This document shows, piece after piece, positions 44,907-45,012 of a DNA stretch of 45,509 nucleotides. Each line of letters begins with the position of its first letter. Position 1 is the stretch's first letter. The stretch lies in contig NZ_JABEMG010000023.1 in NCBI RefSeq assembly GCF_013004695.1, positions 1-45,509 on the forward strand, read 5' to 3'. A program made the position numbers and the translations under genes. The notes beneath the pieces are model-generated. The model was not told the DNA's origin and made no database searches. It saw only the letters and a program-made list of their open reading frames with translations. The DNA is from Promicromonospora citrea (GTDB lineage Bacteria > Actinomycetota > Actinomycetes > Actinomycetales > Cellulomonadaceae).

Positions 44907-44990
44907 TCCTTCGCTCGGTGAGGTTGGCCGGCACACCAAGCCTCCGCGACGAGGACCGGCCTGTCTAGGCCTCGTCGCGGCAGCGAAGGA
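44907..44990 (-). ncRNA. Putative translational attenuator in the leuA leader
   Basis: Read on the minus strand, the Leu codons contain TCCTTCGCT (44990-44982), perfectly complementary over 9 bases to AGCGAAGGA (44915-44907), which covers the leuA Shine-Dalgarno. One base further is an 11-bp perfect stem (44980-44970 with 44954-44944). Its loop has GGCCGG (44961-44956), which can pair with CCGGCC downstream (44931-44926), forming a pseudoknot. A ribosome stalled at Leu codons would free the ribosome site of leuA; a free leader would bury it. This is inference from base pairing; leuA leaders of this general kind have been predicted before in actinobacteria. Confidence 0.72.
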
Positions 44991-45012
44991 GGAGGTTCAC
45001 CGTGTGAAGCAC
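44965..45012 (-). CDS. leuL: leuA leader peptide with four Leu codons of 15
   Basis: A 15-residue peptide, [15 protein letters not shown], whose start is GTG at 45012 and stop TAG at 44967-44965. Codons CTT, then CTC CTC CTT in a row code for Leu. The GTG sits six bases after a -10-like TACAGT (45024-45019), so the leader mRNA may itself be leaderless. The Leu codons overlap the RNA arm that can cover the leuA ribosome site, as expected of an attenuation leader that reads charged tRNA-Leu. It is too short for normal gene calling, but the placement and codon content are strong. Confidence 0.82.

Follow-up and report, generated by a model that had tools for sequence, protein, structure and literature searches.

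The LEU element upstream of leuA in Promicromonospora citrea: a probable translational attenuator, with Val/Ile-coded copies before other genes

Introduction

The LEU element upstream of actinobacterial leuA genes combines a leader ORF carrying a run of Leu codons, a pseudoknot and a base stem in which the Leu codons pair with the Shine-Dalgarno sequence (Seliverstov et al. 2005, PMC1262725). That paper leans towards a protein-binding site as its function. Mutations of the leader in S. coelicolor had effects at odds with classical attenuation (Craster 1999, as reported in PMC1262725), and elsewhere the 2005 paper states that mutations of the Leu codons do not influence regulation. In S. lividans TK24, LeuL1 is reported to start at the leader AUG, making it leaderless, and to lack an intrinsic terminator (PMC8079986).

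Here we describe a further instance of the element reported in 2005, found in a 45,509-nucleotide stretch of Promicromonospora citrea DNA (contig NZ_JABEMG010000023.1, hereafter the window), and compare it with its counterparts at leuA and other genes.

Results

Anatomy of the leuA leader in the window

The leuA gene, encoding a 2-isopropylmalate synthase of 611 aa counted from the first of two consecutive ATG codons, lies on the minus strand (43068..44903). The best named matches of its product, three Promicromonospora records, share 93-94% identity with it, a likeness that points to an actinobacterial host, as for the LEU element. The element as a whole spans 44901-45024 on the minus strand, upstream of leuA. 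Read along that strand, a -10-like hexamer TACAGT (45019..45024) is followed by six bases, the leader ORF, a hairpin, a spacer holding the pseudoknot partner, AGCGAAGGA, CAG and the leuA ATG. The leader ORF (44965..45012) begins with GTG (45012-45010) and has 15 codons and a TAG stop (GTG CTT CAC ACG GTG AAC CTC CTC CTT CGC TGC CGC GAC GAG GCC TAG); the ORF list contains an ORF in this frame that ends at the same position. The leucine leader peptide foreseen by the first-pass annotation is thus borne out, with its Leu codons CTC CTC CTT at 44994-44986.

The leader and the leuA ribosome site can form three helices, all on the minus strand. In the first, H1, the anti-ribosome-site strand UCCUUCGCU within the Leu/Arg codons (44982..44990) can pair without mismatch over 9 bp with AGCGAAGGA at the leuA ribosome site (44907..44915, 3 nt ahead of the ATG). 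This complement had been noted before and placed in the codons CTC CTC CTT CGC; it is indeed there, except that its ninth base is the T of TGC, outside those four codons. The second helix, H2, is a perfect 11-bp stem between CCGCGACGAGG (44970..44980) and CCTCGTCGCGG (44944..44954; RNA: CCUCGUCGCGG). Its loop contains, 3′ of the stop codon, the strand GGCCGGT (GGCCGGU in the RNA; 44955..44961), which can form 6 Watson-Crick pairs plus a U-G with GCCGGCC (44926..44932) in the spacer, giving the pseudoknot H3. Hairpin and pseudoknot are both as first described.

The minimum-energy fold of the region (-50.1 kcal/mol, z -2.47, with 3/200 shuffles as low) includes the 9-bp H1 stem and ten of the eleven H2 pairs. 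It should be noted that the program cannot show pseudoknots; in this fold the downstream pseudoknot strand sits in a competing hairpin that excludes H3. The earlier remark that no U-run is present holds, and no terminator-like site was found between 44850 and 45150. A sigma-70 scan requiring a -35 gave no promoter-like site at the leader. Rfam 15 gave no match at gathering score anywhere in the window, the weak matches within 44800-45150 all lying below gathering.

Around the element, a strong GC-rich inverted repeat, seen as a self-match, lies at 45044-45100, just 5′ of the leader promoter, and is perhaps the terminator of an ORF ending at 45105. On the other side, a plus-strand ORF that by eye resembles a serine/threonine protein kinase (41320-43023) converges on leuA. 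In the Promicromonospora citrea genome the leuA copy is the sole match of our covariance model R1 above noise; four weak matches (E 0.14-0.50) were taken as chance. The region upstream of leuB in this genome (L190) has no element by eye and no R1 match at E<=1.

The element at leuA loci of the order and beyond

We assembled 110 leuA upstream loci of the order, namely the window, 29 loci from the search and 80 that were fetched; 143 of the 149 genomes searched have a LeuA match. Leaders in which three or more Leu codons stand in a row are present in 97 of them. Among the remaining 13, R1 detected the element at E<=8e-8 in seven, at 2e-6 and 3e-5 in two and at about 0.002-0.004 in two more, and found none in the last two (E-values for 23.6 kb). 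According to our script, the four-codon block of the seven R1-only loci holds two Leu codons in six cases and three in the seventh. At the genome level, R1 matches 129/149 genomes of the order, 283/296 sampled from the class and 39/296 sampled from the phylum; 13 of these 39 lie outside the class, four of them with E below 1e-7. It recovers the element at 79 of 80 named LeuA loci, the miss being a Cellulomonadaceae bin (L253).

Several features accompany the Leu run. The stop codon falls in the hairpin loop in 97/97 leaders, under a script rule that accepts the loop or up to 3 nt into an arm; four of the 97 leaders are misanchored or odd, with one Leu in the block. A TANNNT hexamer ends 5-8 nt 5′ of a leader start in 91/97 loci, against 0 to 11 for comparable 4-nt windows elsewhere. 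In the window, where the leader start does lie six bases after the -10 as first reported, a leaderless start is therefore probable, in line with this widespread spacing.

The first-pass annotation had proposed an alignment of leuA leaders across relatives, and such an alignment (67 sequences) reveals covariation of hairpin and pseudoknot: 9 of their 16 pairs have changed on both sides, and 0/500 shuffles were as high. These shuffles ignore relatedness; sliding controls were far lower. Plain permutation tests of the stems share this disregard for relatedness, and we relied on family-blocked versions. By that measure, native pseudoknot partners exceeded those from other families in 14/18 families (p 0.0014, n=97).

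Pairing between Leu codons and the ribosome site is uneven

The masking stem H1 is, on sequence comparison, the least conserved part of the element and not its universal part, though it is real in the window. Native pairs scored above permuted ones in the plain test (15.55 vs. 13.95, sd 0.28, n=83). In the family-blocked tests native was higher in 12/18 families with ungapped pairing (p 0.022, n=96) and in 14/18 with RNAduplex, which allows bulges (p 0.0045), leaving 6/18 and 4/18 families, respectively, below the other-family mean; counted by locus, native exceeded that mean in 61/96 (ungapped) and 60/96 (RNAduplex). The stem is strong in the window's own family (19.7 vs. 14.4, 11 loci) and missing or reversed in several of the remaining families. 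Among three Promicromonospora relatives, two have all nine pairs and Promicromonospora iranensis has 6 bp. Some noise is added to this test by the leuA starts in other genomes, which the script chose from frame and ribosome-site score. The proposal that the Leu codons mask the leuA ribosome site thus stands as far as the 9-bp pairing in the window and coevolution in 12-14 of 18 families are concerned, and is weakened by the poor conservation of the stem and its shortening to 6 bp in P. iranensis. Overall, the sequence comparisons lend moderate support to the masking stem as a functional part of the element at leuA.

Since CUC and CUU are similar in sequence to the 16S rRNA 3′ end, any Leu run might pair with any ribosome site, and the stem would then be a by-product. 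Swapped partners do reach at least 6 Watson-Crick pairs in 2741/8508 combinations; native partners, however, reach this in 53/96 and outdo swapped ones in the family-blocked tests. At least nine consecutive Watson-Crick pairs occur in 4/96 native loci (4.2%) vs. 139/8508 (1.6%) when Shine-Dalgarno regions are swapped between families. In the window the pairing runs beyond the core of the ribosome site into the Arg codon, and no Shine-Dalgarno region from another family reaches 9 pairs with the window's leader in this swap test. These comparisons make a by-product very improbable.

Codon choice bears on the same question. In the 97 leader runs, CTC or CTT make up 279/323 Leu codons and CTG 41, whereas across 28 loci the leuA genes themselves have CTG at 870/1287 Leu codons and CTT at 14; the window's leuA gene has 32 CTG and 13 CTC. 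The last Leu position is CTT in 80/97 leaders, a placement of a rare codon that also speaks against a by-product. In runs of four Leu codons, the first codon, which is mostly outside the pairing, is CTG in 14/32. The preference for CTC and CTT thus fits pairing with the ribosome site. CTC and CTT are read by one tRNA, however, and this could be an alternative cause of the preference, including that for a final CTT.

The unevenness of the stem also has a bearing on whether the leader ribosome acts on translation or on transcription. If it controlled transcription, RNA synthesis would end early when no ribosome is stalled (for example through Rho), and the pseudoknot would contribute to a signal for pausing or termination. 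Control of termination by a leader ribosome is the usual form of attenuation, and leuL of Corynebacterium glutamicum is described as a transcription attenuator (PMC8709942); the masking stem, moreover, is missing in some families and at the small-ORF/leuB elements described below, so that at least there another output is needed. Against this, the window's leader has no intrinsic terminator, a T-run after the hairpin (at least 5 T in 8 nt) occurs in just 10/97 leuA loci, and the masking stem coevolves in most families. We therefore regard control of transcription as unlikely and prefer to see the leader as acting on leuA by masking its ribosome site.

Re-coded copies precede other genes

Several genomes carry second R1 matches. 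To look beyond leuA, we fetched 36 loci, a number of which serve as leuA controls, and named the downstream genes by tblastn with reference proteins. The element also occurs before leuC, before a second leuA, before a gene resembling the regulatory part of LeuA and before a small ORF that is usually followed by leuB. Nine leuC loci have their own Leu-coded element, all in one family of the order (f19; L147-L149, L167-L171, L173), and four loci have it ahead of a second leuA. Within the class the element is not a broad trait of leuC, as just 3 of the 30 closest loci have it. It was found, at E<=5e-5, at nine of the 30 most similar leuB loci (the best 30; 117 of 118 genomes have a leuB match). 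Second-copy matches at L158 and L166, for which the script found no leader, look like chance.

The leader codons differ with the gene that follows. Val or Ile is present in the four-codon block of 16/16 elements before small ORF/leuB and regulatory-like genes vs. 2/117 before leuA or leuC (Fisher p 9e-19, a value that treats relatives as independent); examples are LVIL, LVVI, VILI, VRIL and LVV. The 16 comprise thirteen small-ORF/leuB elements from distinct genomes of six families and three regulatory-like ones from a single family (f22); the 117 comprise 104 leuA, 9 leuC and 4 second-leuA elements. It should be noted that the 97 leuA leaders were selected for Leu runs; neither Val nor Ile occurs in the 7 R1-only leuA leaders either. 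The training set of R1 consisted of Leu leaders, which biases it against finding swapped ones.

The fold is kept in these copies. The pseudoknot of the re-coded elements is formed by other letters, e.g. GTCAGCCA/TGGCTGAC at L183, and over all 29 non-leuA elements native pairing was above all 5000 permutations (17.3 vs. 14.3, sd 0.49). At leuC the pseudoknot is weak, since the best helix of several loci is not the expected loop-spacer pair, and so is the masking stem (p 0.22 for ungapped pairing and 0.03 for the duplex test, n=9). At the small-ORF/leuB elements, no coevolution of leader and ribosome site was detected (p 0.63 and 0.66, n=13).

The proposal of 2005 was that the element is the site of a regulatory protein (the DEAD-box protein ML1624 and its orthologues), with the leader peptide incidental. 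It was made from co-occurrence and the S. coelicolor mutations (PMC1262725), and the strong conservation of hairpin and pseudoknot is in keeping with it. A bound protein leaves unexplained, however, why Val/Ile codons track the downstream gene (16/16 vs. 2/117) even as a changed pseudoknot sequence preserves the fold, and why the stop codon lies in the loop in 97/97 leaders. We find this explanation improbable. Because the codons match what each downstream gene serves to make, in a fold that is preserved, we favour, from the sequence patterns, the leader ribosome as sensor, and take its output at leuA to be the masking of the ribosome site.

Three loci (L152, L157, L159) have, after an element with LVLVV, LVV or LLV, a gene like the LeuA regulatory domain alone. 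For L152 and L157 this likeness was judged by eye alone. The L159 protein matches Pfam LeuA_dimer (E 0.075) and NCBIfam 2-isopropylmalate synthase (E 0.0029), both below cut-off, and its name is accordingly a lead.

A small ORF ahead of leuB

Between the element and leuB lies a small ORF of 20-41 residues, with 53-289 nt between the leader and the ribosome site of this ORF. A motif (A/V/I)(L/V/I)QE(A/S)(M/L)D.R recurs in the small ORF of ten genomes, and EWGPAHL in three. Motifs like ALQEAMDRRDNGGETGH were seen at L183, L191, L194, L200, L205, L174-L177 and L185, and a second type of small ORF (MNTYPIEWGPAHLRDD...) stands between a Val/Ile-coded element and leuB at L192, L201 and L204. The four small proteins scanned had no match in Pfam or NCBIfam, and a comparison with a plasmid collection gave one weak partial match (E 4).

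In one genome (G136, locus L176) no leuB follows the small ORF within the fetched 2 kb, and at four further leuB loci (L184, L186, L187, L189) the ORF is present with no upstream R1 match at E below 0.8. For these reasons the small protein itself may be the direct target of the element. The output at these sites may differ from that at leuA, given the lack of coevolution between leader and ribosome site and the variable distance. In 8/13 small-ORF elements the gap between the -10-like hexamer and the leader start is 9-10 nt instead of 6-7, which would make the leader near-leaderless.

Discussion

The comparisons above establish, as features of sequence, the leader, the hairpin, the pseudoknot, the start spacing, the stop codon in the loop and codons that track the downstream gene. 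The best explanation, which we think probable, is that the LEU element is a leader-peptide translational attenuator in which a stalled ribosome frees the leuA ribosome site. The transcript would most likely begin at the leader GTG, and the ribosome would therefore start the leader without a Shine-Dalgarno sequence. With charged leucyl-tRNA present, it would translate as far as the stop codon, which lies in the hairpin loop, and then come off; once folded, the hairpin and pseudoknot would keep the strand with the Leu codons close to the leuA ribosome site, so that the 9-bp stem would shut and leuA would be poorly translated. When leucine is short, the ribosome would wait at the Leu codons and cover the masking strand, leaving the leuA ribosome site free. 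That the ribosome stalls, that this affects leuA and that the response runs in this direction are what we infer from the arrangement; the uneven masking stem and the mutations reported for S. coelicolor count against the masking model.

More generally, we think it reasonably likely that the LEU element exemplifies a codon-programmable type of actinobacterial leader, which combines a leaderless or near-leaderless mini-ORF with a pseudoknot and a hairpin whose loop holds the stop codon, and which is re-coded from Leu to Leu/Val/Ile at genes serving all branched-chain amino acids. Versions of it would control a 20-41 residue protein before leuB (with the one genome noted above as exception) and a LeuA-regulatory-like protein. 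Such a module would suit GC-rich bacteria because its leader needs no Shine-Dalgarno sequence and it involves no terminator. Natural codon swaps with a kept fold come close to a genetic test of ribosome stalling vs. a bound protein, a question dating from 2005, and the expression of leuA is relevant to strains that produce leucine.

Among known systems, a classical transcription attenuator has an intrinsic terminator after its leader, unlike the leuA leader in the window. The Streptomyces lividans TK24 leader leuL1 and the Corynebacterium leader leuL have 15-18 residues with a Leu run before leuA, as in the window (PMC8079986, PMC5784534, PMC4046766, PMC8709942); the passages on them present these as attenuators and, in contrast to our reading of the window, do not discuss masking of the ribosome site. 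The ilvB-II motif of Corynebacterium likewise has a leader ORF rich in Leu/Ile/Val codons before a branched-chain gene, but it ends in an intrinsic terminator and its description mentions no pseudoknot, unlike the LEU element (PMC10272879). Leaders of the mycobacterial cys operons resemble the LEU element in having a run of codons for the pathway product, Cys, and no obvious terminator, and differ in having no conserved hairpin (PMC1262725).

The closest system is the LEU element of 2005 itself, which shares with the window's element the Leu-run leader ORF, the pseudoknot, the base stem and the position before leuA, and does not differ from it in kind. PMC1262725 makes no mention of leuB, and its text, figures aside, none of leuC or codon-swapped copies; search listings of open papers in PubMed Central gave no report of the element before leuB or leuC, nor of re-coded copies. 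The leader, the pseudoknot and the base stem have thus been known since 2005, and what is new here is the order-wide survey of leuA, the uneven masking stem and the copies re-coded with Val and Ile.
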